A stretch of 34,846 nucleotides of DNA from NCBI GenBank assembly GCA_902594485.1, contig CACJMJ010000009.1:1-34846 (forward strand), in the 5' to 3' direction. The translations under genes were made by a program, and so were the position numbers. The notes under the pieces were generated by a model. The model had not been told where the DNA came from and ran no database searches. It saw nothing but the letters and a program-made list of their open reading frames with translations. The DNA comes from an uncultured Bacteroidota bacterium (GTDB taxonomy: Bacteria > Bacteroidota > Bacteroidia > Flavobacteriales > Flavobacteriaceae). Each line of letters starts with the position of its first letter. The first letter of the stretch is position 1. Of the stretch, positions 27,771 to 33,370 are shown piece by piece.

Positions 27771-28475
27771 ATGGAAGAAAATCCAATCCCAATTTATGTT
27801 GTTGAGTTTATGACAGATGAGTGGAAAACTTGGACTCTTTTTTCATTGGTGTTTATTTCTGTTCCTCTAATCGTTGCTAGGTTTTTAAACAGAAAACAGA
27901 AAATTCAGGTTACATATCTTATTGGGGTCATAATGATTCTTGATTTTATAACTGAAAATGGAGGATATATTATGAGTGGCACATGGGATGTTCAATATAA
28001 TTTACCTATTCAATTATGTGGAATATCTTCCCTAATATGTTGTATTCTTCCTTTTATAAAGAAAAAAGATAAGCTTTTTCAATTTGTTTATTATACAGGA
28101 GTTATCGGTGGTATAATGGCAATTTTGACACCGCAGATGAACTATTTTGACGGATCTTTAAGATACTATTTAAACTATTATGTTTCTCATAGTTTAATCA
28201 TAGTTCTGCCAATTTTTATGTTTCTTCATTTAGACCTTAAGCTTCCTAAATTTTCTTGGTTTAAAATTTGGATTCACCTTAATATCTTAATGGCAATCAT
28301 AATGCCAATTAATTTTCTATTAGACTCAAATTATATGTATGTTAATGCCGCCCCAGAGGTAAGCAACCCTCTTGTAATTGGAGAGTGGCCCTACTATCTA
28401 TTGATTTGGGAACCCCTTGTAATGATTATTGCATATTTAATTTATGCTATAAGTAGAAGAAAAATAATACTTTGA
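27771..28475 (+). CDS. YwaF/TIGR02206-family membrane protein
   Basis: 234 residues with about seven hydrophobic segments, no signal peptide. The family features are the charged break NRKQKIQVTYLIG, the LPIQLCGISSLICCILPF helix with the conserved L-C pair near residue 82, and the YYTGVIGGIMAILTPQMNY segment near 108. Homologues (YwaF, distantly TMEM164) have been suggested to act on acyl chains of lipids, but bacterial members are uncharacterised. Its stop overlaps the start of the next gene (TTGA), making the first joint of a three-gene operon. Confidence 0.85.
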   Translation: MEENPIPIYVVEFMTDEWKTWTLFSLVFISVPLIVARFLNRKQKIQVTYLIGVIMILDFITENGGYIMSGTWDVQYNLPIQLCGISSLICCILPFIKKKDKLFQFVYYTGVIGGIMAILTPQMNYFDGSLRYYLNYYVSHSLIIVLPIFMFLHLDLKLPKFSWFKIWIHLNILMAIIMPINFLLDSNYMYVNAAPEVSNPLVIGEWPYYLLIWEPLVMIIAYLIYAISRRKIIL

Positions 28476-28966: not shown

Positions 28967-29575
28967 ATGGAGTCTCCTATAAAAGTTTTTAGTAATTGGG
29001 TTTTAAGTGGAAAAGATGAAGGTATGGAGAAAAACCACTCTGCATCTGTTGAAAATATGATTGAATATTCAACTAAAGGGATTGATAATTATAGTTTTAT
29101 AGATGCTGGTTGTGGAAATGGTTGGGTTGTCCGAGGGATTTCCTCTGATCCAAGATGTAAACAAGCAATTGGTGTAGACGGGTCAATACAAATGATTGAA
29201 AAAGCAAAAAGACTGGATAAAAAAAATAATTACTTCTGCTCTGACTTATTAGATTGGAATCCTAAAGAAAAAGTTGATATCGTTCACTCAATGGAAGTTT
29301 TTTATTATTTTAAAAAACCTGAAATTCTTGTAAATCATATTTATAACAATTGGCTAAACGAAGGAGGTCGATTGATTATGGGTATTGACCATTATAAAGA
29401 AAACAAACCATCAAACAACTGGAAGGAAGAGACATCAATAAGTATCATGCAATTATTCTCAGAAAACACATGGTTAGACTTTTTCAAAACAGCAGGTTTT
29501 GTTAATATAGAGTCTTGGTGCTTTGGTAAAGAAGGTGAATGGAATGGGACACTAATTATTACTGGAATTAAGTAG
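28967..29575 (+). CDS. class I SAM-dependent methyltransferase
   Basis: 202 residues, cytoplasmic. Rossmann-like methyltransferase with the SAM-binding motif I FIDAGCGNGWVVR near residue 44, the acidic post-I strand GVDGSIQMIEKAK near 67, a motif II CSDLLDW, and VDIVHSMEVFYYF near 103 followed by LNEGGRLIMGID. Substrate unknown. It directly abuts the histidine phosphatase gene. Its last 24 bases overlap the end of the opposite FMN reductase gene. Confidence 0.92.
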   Translation: MESPIKVFSNWVLSGKDEGMEKNHSASVENMIEYSTKGIDNYSFIDAGCGNGWVVRGISSDPRCKQAIGVDGSIQMIEKAKRLDKKNNYFCSDLLDWNPKEKVDIVHSMEVFYYFKKPEILVNHIYNNWLNEGGRLIMGIDHYKENKPSNNWKEETSISIMQLFSENTWLDFFKTAGFVNIESWCFGKEGEWNGTLIITGIK

Positions 29576-30112
29576 ATTTTCAACCTGACCAGAAAATATA
29601 CTTATCTGTTTATCTAGCTCTTCACTTAATTTTTTATCTGTAATTCCATCAGTGTCAGAAAAGTTTTCATTGAACTTAGGAAGAGCAAAATGAGGAATCT
29701 CTAGAGCACTTTGTCGAGAAAAACGAGATACGGCTGTTTGAAGAACTGTAATCCCTGCATTCTGTCCATCGCTAGTTGATAATAAAATTAAAGGCTTATT
29801 ACTCCATACGGTTTTTTCGATTACAGAGATCCAGTCGTATATGTTTTTGAATGCCGAGGTATAGGAACCGTTATGCTCAGCAAGTGAAATAATTATCCCA
29901 ATGCTTTCATTAACTAATTTTTTAAACTCATATGCTTTATCTGGAATACCTGTTTCTTCTTCTCTATCTTCACTGTAAATAGGCATTTCAAATTCATTTA
30001 AGTCAACAAGAATAGCCTCTTTTGGAGCCATTCTTTTGGCAACATAAGAGGCTAATTTTTTATTCTTTGAGTTTTTTGAGGAAGAAGCCCCAAAAGCAAG
30101 TAATTTACTCAT
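29552..30112 (-). CDS. NAD(P)H-dependent FMN reductase-family protein
   Basis: 186 residues with a flavodoxin-like fold. N-terminal LLAFGASSSKNSKNKKLASYVAKRM is the FMN phosphate loop; SLAEHNGSYTSAFKNIYDWIS near 97 and LLSTSDGQNAG near 130 are the usual isoalloxazine contacts. Such enzymes reduce FMN, quinones or metals. Its ATG overlaps the stop of a 27-codon CDGSH gene by one base (TAATG), and that gene lies 1 bp after yceI, so three redox or envelope genes form one operon. The 3' end overlaps the opposite methyltransferase gene by 24 bp. Confidence 0.93.
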   Translation of the reverse strand: MSKLLAFGASSSKNSKNKKLASYVAKRMAPKEAILVDLNEFEMPIYSEDREEETGIPDKAYEFKKLVNESIGIIISLAEHNGSYTSAFKNIYDWISVIEKTVWSNKPLILLSTSDGQNAGITVLQTAVSRFSRQSALEIPHFALPKFNENFSDTDGITDKKLSEELDKQISIFSGQVENLLNSSNN

Positions 30113-30195
30113 TATTGATTACTGTGAGAACCATCACAAAATCCTTCTGGGTTTTGAGTGTTTCCACAGCCACATCTAGGTCTATTAGAATTCAT
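30112..30195 (-). CDS. CDGSH iron-sulfur miniprotein (27 aa)
   Basis: A 27-codon ORF, ATG at 30195 to TAA at 30112, encoding CGCGNTQNPEGFCDGSH at residues 8-24 between MNSNRPR and SNQ. This is the CDGSH zinc-finger-like motif that binds a redox-active [2Fe-2S] cluster through three Cys and one His, here C8, C10, C20 and H24. The gap between the second and third Cys is nine residues where mitoNEET has eight. Known CDGSH proteins are usually 60 residues or longer; this is the bare motif, with an in-frame stop 12 bases above the ATG. The gene sits 1 bp after yceI and overlaps the reductase ATG by one base, which is strong evidence that it is translated. Electron exchange with the adjacent FMN reductase is inferred. 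Confidence 0.8.
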   Translation of the reverse strand: MNSNRPRCGCGNTQNPEGFCDGSHSNQ

Positions 30196-30196
30196 A

Positions 30197-30808
30197 TTAT
30201 GAAGTTTTTAAGTTAATTTTTAGTTCAATATCATCGTATATAAGCTTATCCCCAAGGTTTTCAAAAAATGTTCCGGATCTAAATTTTACATTATACTTAG
30301 AACGATCGAAAACAAGGTTAGCATTCCATCCATCCTCGGTATTTACCATTTCAAATAATACCGGATGTGAAATGTCTTTAATAGTTAAAAATCCATTAAC
30401 CATCCATTTTCCATTTGAAATTACTTCAGAGCTTGAAATATACAAATGTGCTGTTGGGAAAGATTCGACTGAAAAGAAATCATCTGATCTTAAGTGACCC
30501 TCTAATCTTTCTTTACTTCCTCCTGTTAAGTCTTGAACAGTAATAGATGTCATATCTACAAGAAATTCTCCTTGTGAAATTAGACCATCTGCAATCTCAA
30601 ATTGTCCAGATGTAAAATTAATAGTTCCGTAGTGAGAGCTTGTTGAAACTTCACGTCCAGTCCACATAAGGCTACTTTCATCTTGTACAATATTATAGGT
30701 TGCGTCAGCAGCAGTCATTGCCACATCATTAGTCTCTGCTGTTTTGTTTGAATTCATGTTACATGAAACCAGTGAGACAAACATTAATAAAGCGATTAAT
30801 TTTTTCAT
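30197..30808 (-). CDS. YceI-family lipoprotein
   Basis: 203 residues with a lipoprotein signal peptide (MKKLIALLMFVSLVSC, Cys16). The YceI lipocalin-like barrel follows: YNIVQDESSLMWTGREVSTSSHYGTINFTSG, FLVDMTSITVQDL, HLRSDDFFSVESFPTAHL and FLTIKDISHPVLFEM. YceI proteins bind long isoprenoid chains such as polyprenyl pyrophosphate or quinone precursors in a hydrophobic pocket. It heads an operon with the CDGSH miniprotein and FMN reductase. An exact -7 box was not found upstream; its start region is about 90 bp from the first dyad of the neighbouring operator array, so divergent control by the Xre regulator is possible. Confidence 0.95.
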   Translation of the reverse strand: MKKLIALLMFVSLVSCNMNSNKTAETNDVAMTAADATYNIVQDESSLMWTGREVSTSSHYGTINFTSGQFEIADGLISQGEFLVDMTSITVQDLTGGSKERLEGHLRSDDFFSVESFPTAHLYISSSEVISNGKWMVNGFLTIKDISHPVLFEMVNTEDGWNANLVFDRSKYNVKFRSGTFFENLGDKLIYDDIELKINLKTS

Positions 30809-31017: not shown

Positions 31018-31212
31018 ATGCTTATAAATAGAGTTAAAGATTATCGAAAAGGTGCAAACTTAACACAAGAAGACTTAGCCTCAATGACTGGGGTTAGCAG
31101 GCAGACTATAATATCAATAGAAAAAAACAAATTTGTGCCTGGACTAGATATAGCCATGAGGATTGCCGAGTCTTTAAAAACACCAATTAATAAGCTTTTT
31201 TATTTTGTTTAG
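31018..31212 (+). CDS. small Xre-family helix-turn-helix regulator
   Basis: 64 residues, a single HTH_3 (Cro/C1) domain: VKDYRKGANLTQEDLASMTGVSRQTIISIEKNKFVPGLDIAMRIAESLKTPINKLF. The helix-turn-helix spans roughly residues 15-34 with the Q-x-x-I recognition helix (SRQTIISIE). Miniature regulators of this type often repress their own operon. Upstream lie three to four dyad operators overlapping its promoter, and its TAG stop directly abuts the ATG of the Stealth gene (TAGATG), so both are on one transcript. Other members of this size class usually precede a DUF2975 membrane protein; here the partner is different. Confidence 0.93.
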   Translation: MLINRVKDYRKGANLTQEDLASMTGVSRQTIISIEKNKFVPGLDIAMRIAESLKTPINKLFYFV

Positions 31213-32155: not shown

Positions 32156-33370
32156 CTAAATAGCTTTAATAGCCTCAACTACAGTGTCTATCTCATTTTT
32201 TGTATTATATAAAGAAATACCAAGCCTTGTAACGCCCCCTTTACTTTCTAGACCTAATTCCTGAATTGCTTTGAGAGCATAGAAGTGCCCGTCCCAAGCG
32301 CATATATTATGCTTAGCTAGGGATGCGCAGACCTCTTGAGGAGAGTGGTCAGAATGAACAAATGAAACAGTCGGCGTTCTTTCTCTTGTAGAAAAATCAG
32401 GACCAATAACTGTTGTTTTGTCAAATCCATCTAATGATTCATAAAGATATTTTGCAAGATTAAACTCATGGTCACTGATGTGTAGGTATGCACTTTCCAA
32501 TTTTTCTCTATATGACTCCCCTTCTCCAAGAGTTGAAATAAAGTCGATGGCAGCTGACACACCTGCGCATGAGGCATGGTTTAGTGTACCTGTCTCAATT
32601 ATGTAGGGCGCTTCCTGATCTTGAACCACTAGTCTATCCGGGTCAAGACTTTCTAAAACACCCGGTCTTGAGTAAAGAAAACTTATATGCGGACCGTAAA
32701 ACTTATAAGCTGAACACAACATAAAGTCACAACCAAGCTTTTCTACATCAATTGAAAAGTGAGGAGCATAATGAACAGCGTCTAATAAAAAGAAACACTC
32801 TCGCCCTTTTAGATATTCTTTAACCTTTATAAAATTATTTAATGTTCCTAATGCATTTGAAGACATACCCATACAAACCATCACTGTTTTCTCATTTATC
32901 TTATTTTTAAAATCAGAGTAGTCCAGCGTTCCGTTTTGCATTAACTTAACTTCAATAATTTTCACACCTACCTCTTTTAATATCATCCATGGACCTCTGT
33001 TTGCTTCATGGTCTAGCTCAGTGACTATTACCTCGTCTCCTTCTTTAAATTTTTTTGATAAAGCCCTTGCCAAACTATAGTTTAATGTTGTCATGTTCTG
33101 ACCAATTGAAATTGAGTTAGGACTCTTTGCTCCTAGCATGGCGGCAACTTTAAATCGGAGATTATCCATAATAGAGTCTGTTTCTTTACTTGTAATAAAT
33201 TCTCCGTGTGTGTTTGCGTTTGATCTTAAATAATATTTGGAAATTGCCTCAATTACTTGAATAGGAACTTGCGTACCACCCGGACCATCTAGGTATATAA
33301 TTTGCTGATTAGACTCATTCACCCTGTTTAAAGAGGGAAAGTATTCTCTGGTTTTTTCTGAATTTATCAT
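32156..33370 (-). CDS. cysteine desulfurase-like protein (class V aminotransferase fold)
   Basis: 404 residues, PLP-dependent fold type I. N-terminal YLDGPGGTQVPIQVIEAI; H121 in TELDHEANRGPW stacks on PLP; D197 and H200 in LLDAVHYAPH; PLP lysine K223 in CSAYKFYGPH; C-terminal REGTPTVSF-like and GVTRLGISLYNT segments. It resembles the cysteine desulfurase-like TIGR01976 subfamily more than SufS or IscS, and no Suf or Isc genes are adjacent. A clear catalytic-Cys loop was not identified, so desulfurase activity is uncertain; a lyase or aminotransferase role is possible. One base separates its stop from the Stealth gene stop on the opposite strand. Confidence 0.9.
   Translation of the reverse strand: MINSEKTREYFPSLNRVNESNQQIIYLDGPGGTQVPIQVIEAISKYYLRSNANTHGEFITSKETDSIMDNLRFKVAAMLGAKSPNSISIGQNMTTLNYSLARALSKKFKEGDEVIVTELDHEANRGPWMILKEVGVKIIEVKLMQNGTLDYSDFKNKINEKTVMVCMGMSSNALGTLNNFIKVKEYLKGRECFFLLDAVHYAPHFSIDVEKLGCDFMLCSAYKFYGPHISFLYSRPGVLESLDPDRLVVQDQEAPYIIETGTLNHASCAGVSAAIDFISTLGEGESYREKLESAYLHISDHEFNLAKYLYESLDGFDKTTVIGPDFSTRERTPTVSFVHSDHSPQEVCASLAKHNICAWDGHFYALKAIQELGLESKGGVTRLGISLYNTKNEIDTVVEAIKAI

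Follow-up and report, generated by a model that had tools for sequence, protein, structure and literature searches.

By its pattern of conservation, a 27-codon open reading frame (ORF) between yceI and a flavin reductase gene of an uncultured Flavobacteriaceae bacterium is a real, conserved gene, and the X9 micro-CDGSH proteins, to which its product belongs by sequence, are a class distinct from classical CDGSH proteins, a variant rather than a member of the CISD family. X9 and X8 refer to nine and eight residues between the second and third cysteines of the motif. The explanation that we favor, at a probability of roughly 45%, is that the ORF is translated into a cytosolic X9 micro-CDGSH protein that would fold as a metal-closed hairpin and act in redox or electrophile stress. 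A conserved CDGSH-like protein of about 25 residues would ask how little protein suffices for a biological metal site, supplies short, synthesisable peptides with which such a minimal site can be tested, and gives a handle on the role of YceI in redox balance and on CDGSH function in bacteria.

Layout of the locus

The window (the whole stretch of 34,846 nucleotides that was analysed) belongs to an assembly of 860,652 bases that is 57.7% complete. The features on which the analysis bears are as follows.

29552..30112, minus strand: NADPH-dependent FMN reductase family gene (PF03358, 97 bits, above the cut-off of 24)
30112..30195, minus strand: micro-CDGSH ORF, 27 aa, MNSNRPRCGCGNTQNPEGFCDGSHSNQ (conserved in the genus, omega 0.115)
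30124..30174, minus strand: predicted metal-ligand module C-x-C-G-N-T-x-N-P-E-G-F-C-D-G-S-H, X9 class (pattern match, class separation)
30197..30808, minus strand: yceI, YceI-like domain protein (PF04264, 86.9 bits, above the cut-off of 23.7)
31018..31212, plus strand: divergent gene upstream of yceI for a 64-aa Cro/C1-type HTH protein (PF01381/PF12844)

On the minus strand, a gap of one base (30196) separates yceI from the ORF, and the FMN reductase gene starts on the last base of the ORF's TAA stop, forming a TAATG overlap. An earlier note on this DNA had described a 27-codon ORF placed 1 bp after yceI and overlapping the reductase ATG by one base, with C8, C10, C20 and H24 as ligands and nine residues between C10 and C20; the coordinates agree with this placement, and reading the minus strand returns the same codons, ligands and spacing.

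Judged by eye, a signal sequence with an LVSC lipobox marks the YceI of the window as probably exported; none is seen in the microprotein, so the two would occupy different compartments. The reductase is assigned to the NADPH-dependent FMN reductase family by its Pfam score, and its activity is a prediction. The HTH gene, which adjoins yceI in 19/19 genus loci, is a possible regulator of the yceI operon. The ORF is invisible to the standard model, since a search of its own genome with the Pfam CDGSH model returned nothing at E <= 0.001, and the microprotein scored above the cut-off of no Pfam model and had no match in NCBIfam.

Two further genes lie in the vicinity. A member of the TMEM164 family, which is better known from eukaryotes, is encoded at 27771-28475 (plus strand; PF14808, E 5.8e-39), and its gene stands beside the yceI operon in 18 of the 19 genus loci, the other locus (L006) ending before this point. 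A cysteine desulfurase-like protein is encoded at 32156-33370 (minus strand; TIGR01976, 374.8 bits, cut-off 352.35), about 1.3 kb beyond yceI, with two opposite-strand genes between.

Conservation of the ORF as a coding gene

A generalised motif pattern matched the window once and matched 0 of 100 dinucleotide-preserving shuffles. An orthologue of the FMN reductase was found in 19 of 25 genomes of the genus, the window's own included, and directly upstream of it an ORF with all four ligands stands in 19/19 loci (window included), which were retrieved through the reductase rather than through the ORF. A twentieth reductase place (L020), a weak second match (E 8.8e-5), is without the ORF. The TAATG junction is preserved in 17 of the 19 loci. 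Over 21 codons, the pooled Nei-Gojobori omega is 0.115 in frame, as against 1.80 and 1.12 in the other two sense frames and 2.94 in one antisense frame, and the differences per codon position (0.10, 0.09 and 0.38) are about four times as frequent at the third position as at the first or second. The retention of ORF, ligands and frame in close relatives and a low dN/dS were among the checks that the earlier note had proposed, and its prediction passed both in these 19 loci.

When searched with a profile, 20 of the 25 genus genomes contained the module, including one (G003) with no reductase match. The remaining five are drafts 54-84% complete, so the module may be truly missing there or hidden in gaps. 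Four genus genomes (G012, G015, G021 and G022; locus L143) have a second X9-type paralogue, which lies in a 58-aa frame about 10-17 kb from the yceI copy.

The ORF has a counterpart in a second phylum. Of 30 genomes from the genus of a Paenibacillus record (L125), 16 have one match each, one of them with an internal stop. The 25-aa Paenibacillus ORF is preceded by a Shine-Dalgarno-like sequence in 15/15 intact loci, its omega is 0.064 in frame and 2.5 and 1.03 in the shifted frames, and its DNA identity is 90%, compared with 43% in the ungapped sequence just upstream. In several of these loci, apparent terminator hairpins follow the stop directly (by eye). On sequence grounds, we regard the Paenibacillus data as independent proof of translation.

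An ORF of 27 codons in the gap between two genes invites the reading that it is a non-functional leader peptide or a chance ORF. The chance ORF was rejected on the shuffles and on the frame-specific constraint (omega 0.115), and the leader peptide on the constraint at the amino-acid level, on the in-frame fusions to YceI, RicT-like and bS16 proteins described below, and on the recurrence in another phylum with a Shine-Dalgarno sequence. Altogether, we consider a non-functional origin extremely improbable.

Separation of X9 from classical X8 motifs

To compare spacings, we searched loci L001-L090 for CxC...CDG[STA]H with 5-13 residues allowed before the third Cys; the queries that had retrieved these loci were the FMN reductase, X9 peptides and an X9 profile, and the set therefore leans towards X9. 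Only two spacings occurred, eight (35 occurrences) and nine (62, repeats of the window locus included). The two kinds of motif also differ at the position two before the third Cys, which is Pro in 25 of 27 unique X8 motifs and in none of 37 unique X9 motifs, the latter having Gly there in 37/37. X8 motifs lie in frames of 70-140 aa and X9 ORFs are mostly 24-35 aa long. Across all loci, we collected 185 unique X9 motifs, of which 168 have Asn or Asp three before the loop Gly and 91 have Pro as the next residue; these two positions were free, unlike the ligands, both Gly and CDG[ST]H, which the pattern fixed. Conservation of the ligands is informative only in the 19 syntenic loci, A1, A2 and the 185 motifs having been preselected for them.

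As far as the accessible text of PMC3174974 goes, the CISD consensus has 17 residues, Phi-C-x-C-x2-(S/T)-x3-P-Phi-C-D-G-(S/T/A)-H, the interface residues Phi1, P11 and Phi12 are shared, and a beta-sandwich dimerisation module with an N-strand and a P motif is described as a requirement of classical CISDs. The window protein has the CISD ligand set C-x-C ... C-x3-H (three Cys and one His). Its spacing is nine residues instead of eight, P11 is absent, Arg occupies the position of the hydrophobic residue before the first Cys, and with seven residues before that Cys and three after the His, it has no N-strand, P motif or beta-sandwich. Since the X8 spacing, P11 and the beta-sandwich are all lacking, the protein is not placed in the CISD family, and plain CISD membership was rejected on the separation of the X9 and X8 classes. 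More generally, Phi1, P11 and Phi12 are largely absent from the X9 class, and among the matches listed M, L or I precedes the first Cys in 13 of 103 stand-alone units. The nine-residue spacing, which the earlier note had set against the eight of mitoNEET as a point of added interest, thus breaks the published consensus and marks a separate class.

The same features bear on a further possibility, namely that the protein is a degenerate but bona fide CISD that dimerises and binds [2Fe-2S] exactly as mitoNEET does. It shares the ligand set and the CDGSH core with these proteins, and the closest solved sequences, although weak matches, are CISD chains (3tbn, E 0.011; 3tbm, E 0.19). However, the extra loop residue, the missing P11, the mostly missing hydrophobic residue before the first Cys, the lack of room for a beta-strand or P motif and a PF09360 score of 14.9 bits against a gathering score of 29.5 make such a protein improbable.

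The survey that set seven CISD types used PHI-BLAST with the eight-residue consensus, according to the part of PMC3174974 available, and would for this reason be expected to miss the X9 class. Our own literature search, which was thin on subscription journals, listed no title on the X9 class and no paper that pairs CDGSH with YceI, and the X9 micro-CDGSH family is apparently not yet described.

Distribution

At E <= 1e-7, the module is present in 15 of 299 genomes of the family, which belong to 12 of its 236 genera. Across the order, 31 of 395 genomes gave a match at E <= 0.001; these include at least one canonical X8 protein (G356, L080) and one unread match (G345). The phylum sample gave 11 matches in 395 genomes, own included: apart from the window, which is the single X9 case, nine are X8 and one (L090) is neither X8 nor X9 by pattern. 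None of the 15 family carriers in the sample has a genome larger than 2.7 Mb, and the trait may go with streamlined lineages, although the module is also found in Polaribacter (3.0 and 4.1 Mb) and in Paenibacillus-type genomes (5.9-9.2 Mb).

When the DNA pattern C-x-C-G-x-[ST]-x4-G-x-C-D-G-[ST]-H was run on named genomes, it returned at least 120 stretches, with about 0.2 matches expected in 257 Gb of random sequence (both strands, equal base composition; our arithmetic). Titles for 80 of the matches listed include Flavobacteriales, Paenibacillus, Brevibacillus and Verrucomicrobiota/Opitutae. A viral collection likewise returned at least 120 stretches, and among the matches listed 87 fall in frames no longer than 60 aa and 33 in frames above that length. 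Loci fetched by this pattern, named-genome and viral alike, cannot test spacing or ligands. The earlier suspicion that such a gene might be widespread and missed by annotation is borne out by a score below the Pfam cut-off and by occurrence in several phyla and on viral contigs.

Searches of phage and plasmid collections gave little. Among eight proteins compared with PHROGs, the window protein and the short viral ones had no match, and a 109-aa viral carrier (E 0.038) and the Paenibacillus 25-mer (E 0.27) matched weakly. One viral 26-mer had no match in cultured phages at E 1, a second viral peptide gave three weak places there at E 10 (E 2-8), and one Paenibacillus 25-mer had no match in plasmids at E 1.

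Free, tandem and fused modules

The 120 named-genome stretches listed resolve into 121 units: 103 stand-alone, 11 tandem pairs, three in long frames, two N-terminal YceI fusions and two with an internal stop. A unit counted as stand-alone if a single motif lay in an open frame no longer than 150 aa that did not also encode YceI. Among the matches listed, stand-alone ORFs counted from the last upstream Met are mostly 24-35 aa (median 27), and three frames among the 103 are longer than 60 aa (76, 93 and 96). The in-frame stops fall inside the motif in two of the 121 units (L096 and L122) and in two other loci (L060 and L364), all left out of intact counts. The tandem pairs (11 loci) have linkers of 7-13 residues, and those with a title seen are from Opitutae or Verrucomicrobiota.

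Four further families within the order have the module ahead of YceI in one frame. These N-terminal fusions have a hydrophobic segment between module and YceI, with basic residues on its N-terminal side; the fused module precedes the YceI signal or anchor helix and would therefore lie on the predicted cytosolic side. Six of 11 fusions checked (two of them identical) have no Met from the motif to the midpoint of the hydrophobic core, which makes a start that excludes the module unlikely in those six.

Other carriers are unrelated to YceI. Among the matches listed, the three long-frame units comprise two RicT-like proteins and one bS16. RicT/PSP1-like proteins of 383-400 aa, found at seven loci, have the X9 module as their last ~20 residues, and Pfam confirmed the PSP1 domain in one representative. 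In B. subtilis, RicT carries a [4Fe-4S] cluster, as stated in the accessible part of PMC6751060. The bS16 carrier (L190; Pfam-confirmed) is a 216-aa protein whose C-terminal part is a long acidic extension with the X9 module. At eight viral loci, an XkdF-type protein ends with the module; its Peptidase_S78_2 (XkdF) domain was confirmed by Pfam in one representative, and a 153-aa piece of one viral XkdF-type protein matched 13 cultured-phage records, every match stopping ahead of the motif. Some viral modules are internal instead of terminal (for example, those of L254, L272 and L275).

These carriers bear on an alternative in which the module is a zinc (or mononuclear iron) hairpin serving as a portable interaction tag, with a SEC-C-like role and a common partner such as the ribosome or a translation-linked factor. 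Its position near the N- or C-terminus of unrelated proteins (the YceI n-region, RicT-like, bS16 and XkdF-type) and its size, too small for the CISD fold, speak for such a tag, and the SecA metal-binding domain binds 70S ribosomes, according to the available text of PMC6620043. Against it, the third Cys opens a CDG[ST]H, which is the signature of CISDs and differs from the C-[CH] ending of SEC-C; the proteins scanned had no SEC-C Pfam match, many copies stand alone as microproteins and have no protein to mark, and some viral copies are internal. We hold the interaction tag to be a serious if unproven contender, nearly as likely as the redox reading.

Genes beside the module

YceI and FMN reductase genes were located with profiles grown from the window's proteins. 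Among the matches listed, YceI lies directly upstream on the same strand in 60 of 103 stand-alone units (a raw count), and the distance from its end to the first Cys is 24-85 bp in 60/60 of these cases. The 103 units listed divide into 49 with YceI upstream only, 11 with YceI and a downstream FMN reductase, four with a downstream FMN reductase only, one with YceI downstream and 38 with neither. The yceI linkage that the earlier note saw at one locus thus extends to most of the units listed and to the N-terminal fusions. The link to the FMN reductase stands in the window's genus and in six loci outside the 25 genus genomes (L092 and L103 with YceI; L099, L148, L152 and L181 without) and fails in 49 of the 60 YceI-linked units listed; nine of the 11 units listed with both genes belong to the window's genus, by contig or by sequence. 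With the reductase directly downstream in 15 of the 103 stand-alone units listed, a flavin reductase as general partner was rejected. Of 299 family genomes, 292 have YceI and 15 have the module, so YceI does not depend on the module.

Eleven of the 16 loci from the genus of the Paenibacillus record have a gene of the nitroreductase family downstream, on the same strand and starting 146-560 bp away in the 10 intact loci checked. Flavoenzyme neighbors thus occur in two phyla and are of different families (FMN reductase and nitroreductase); nitroreductase genes are common, and their linkage may reflect a single event. Among 26 loci picked for having no upstream YceI, the ORF has a divergent gene of an HxlR-type cluster beside it in seven and a DoxX-like gene in four, some of these loci being closely related and one representative per cluster having been scanned. 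HxlR, DoxX, nitroreductase and FMN reductase recall the quinone and electrophile stress genes of Bacillus. Among the viral matches listed, the commonest neighbor clusters are a family with no Pfam match (40), a small membrane protein with no match over the cut-off (36) and Peptidase_M15_3 (36), and this neighborhood looks like a lysis region.

Predicted structure and metal site

The AlphaFold model of a single module (30 aa) has a pLDDT of 73 and a pTM of 0.27, with bridge residues at 10 and 22; this weak model has no strand of three or more residues and found no match in a Foldseek search of the PDB. The tandem model, also weak (pLDDT 55, pTM 0.25), has two pairs of two-residue strands. These models fit a hairpin without proving one. 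The sequence [N/D]-P-x-G is a signature of a tight beta-hairpin turn. For the metal, we put an exposed, probably labile [2Fe-2S] cluster at even odds, zinc or mononuclear iron is a lesser but substantial possibility, and a site with no stable metal is unlikely.

Proposed function

In the explanation that we favor, the 17-residue module would fold into a beta-hairpin closed by the metal, with the N-P-D/E-G turn taking the place of the proline loop and the beta-cap that classical CISDs have, and three Cys and one His would hold the metal, with [2Fe-2S] as first choice. Between yceI and the flavin reductase gene, the window microprotein would be translated through termination-reinitiation coupling; it would be reduced by FMNH2 from that reductase, and act as an electron relay or as a redox or iron sensor in a response to redox or electrophile stress, of which YceI would be the envelope arm. 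Electron transfer across the membrane to YceI is no part of the proposal.

The lipocalin BcnA presumably belongs to the YceI family. In the portions of the two reports available, mitoNEET accepts electrons from FMNH2 that a flavin reductase has made and hands them to oxygen or ubiquinone (PMC9490426), and a secreted lipocalin system counters lipid peroxidation (PMC9113575). Taken together with the gene order, these reports make a role in redox or electrophile stress what seems to us the simplest reading of the window operon. Several observations count against this explanation: the 38 of 103 stand-alone units listed that have neither YceI nor FMN reductase; the bS16 and phage capsid-protease-type carriers, which do not suggest redox chemistry; the many YceI proteins without a module; the separate compartments; the weak models; the scarcity of CISD interface residues; and the nitroreductases, which are common and distant.

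A broader reading, which we offer as speculative and rather unlikely as a whole, makes X9 a self-contained, portable module of ~17 residues, perhaps the smallest natural [2Fe-2S] protein, which bacteria and viruses would use in two ways, free as a redox microprotein and attached to other proteins as a tag that senses redox state or iron. The tight N-P-x-G turn would close the site, so that no beta-sandwich dimer is needed. As part of the same conjecture, the tag would sit on proteins of translation, RNA processing, the envelope and capsid maturation, and the free form would stand beside flavoenzymes and YceI.

Comparison with known systems

CISD/NEET proteins (PF09360) share with X9 the order C-x-C...CDG[ST]H and a Ser or Thr three after the second Cys, whereas X9 has nine loop residues instead of eight, Gly in place of the CISD Pro, and no room for a beta-sandwich. 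SEC-C is, like X9, a portable, Cys-rich element of ~20 residues. Its pattern is C-x-C-x8-C-[CH] and begins C-x-C-G; X9 ends in C-x3-H with a nine-residue spacing, and neither the SEC-C pattern nor a Pfam SEC-C match was found in it. Among the tandem class II or type 6 CISDs (CISD3/Miner2, MmCISD), two modules occur in one protein, as they do in the X9 proteins of Opitutae; the X9 linker is 7-13 residues, as against ~20 residues in type 6 in the accessible text of PMC3174974, each module is X9, and the tandem model is of low confidence.

With mitoNEET and its flavin reductase, the likeness is that a CDGSH-type site and a predicted flavin reductase are encoded side by side here; the classical fold cannot form in X9. 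In the BcnA-LcoA system, in which a lipocalin and a cytochrome b561 act on lipid peroxyls, a YceI-type lipocalin is linked to the gene of a redox partner, as it appears to be at the X9 locus; there, the partner would be the microprotein and, in the genus of the window, the FMN reductase, rather than cytochrome b561.
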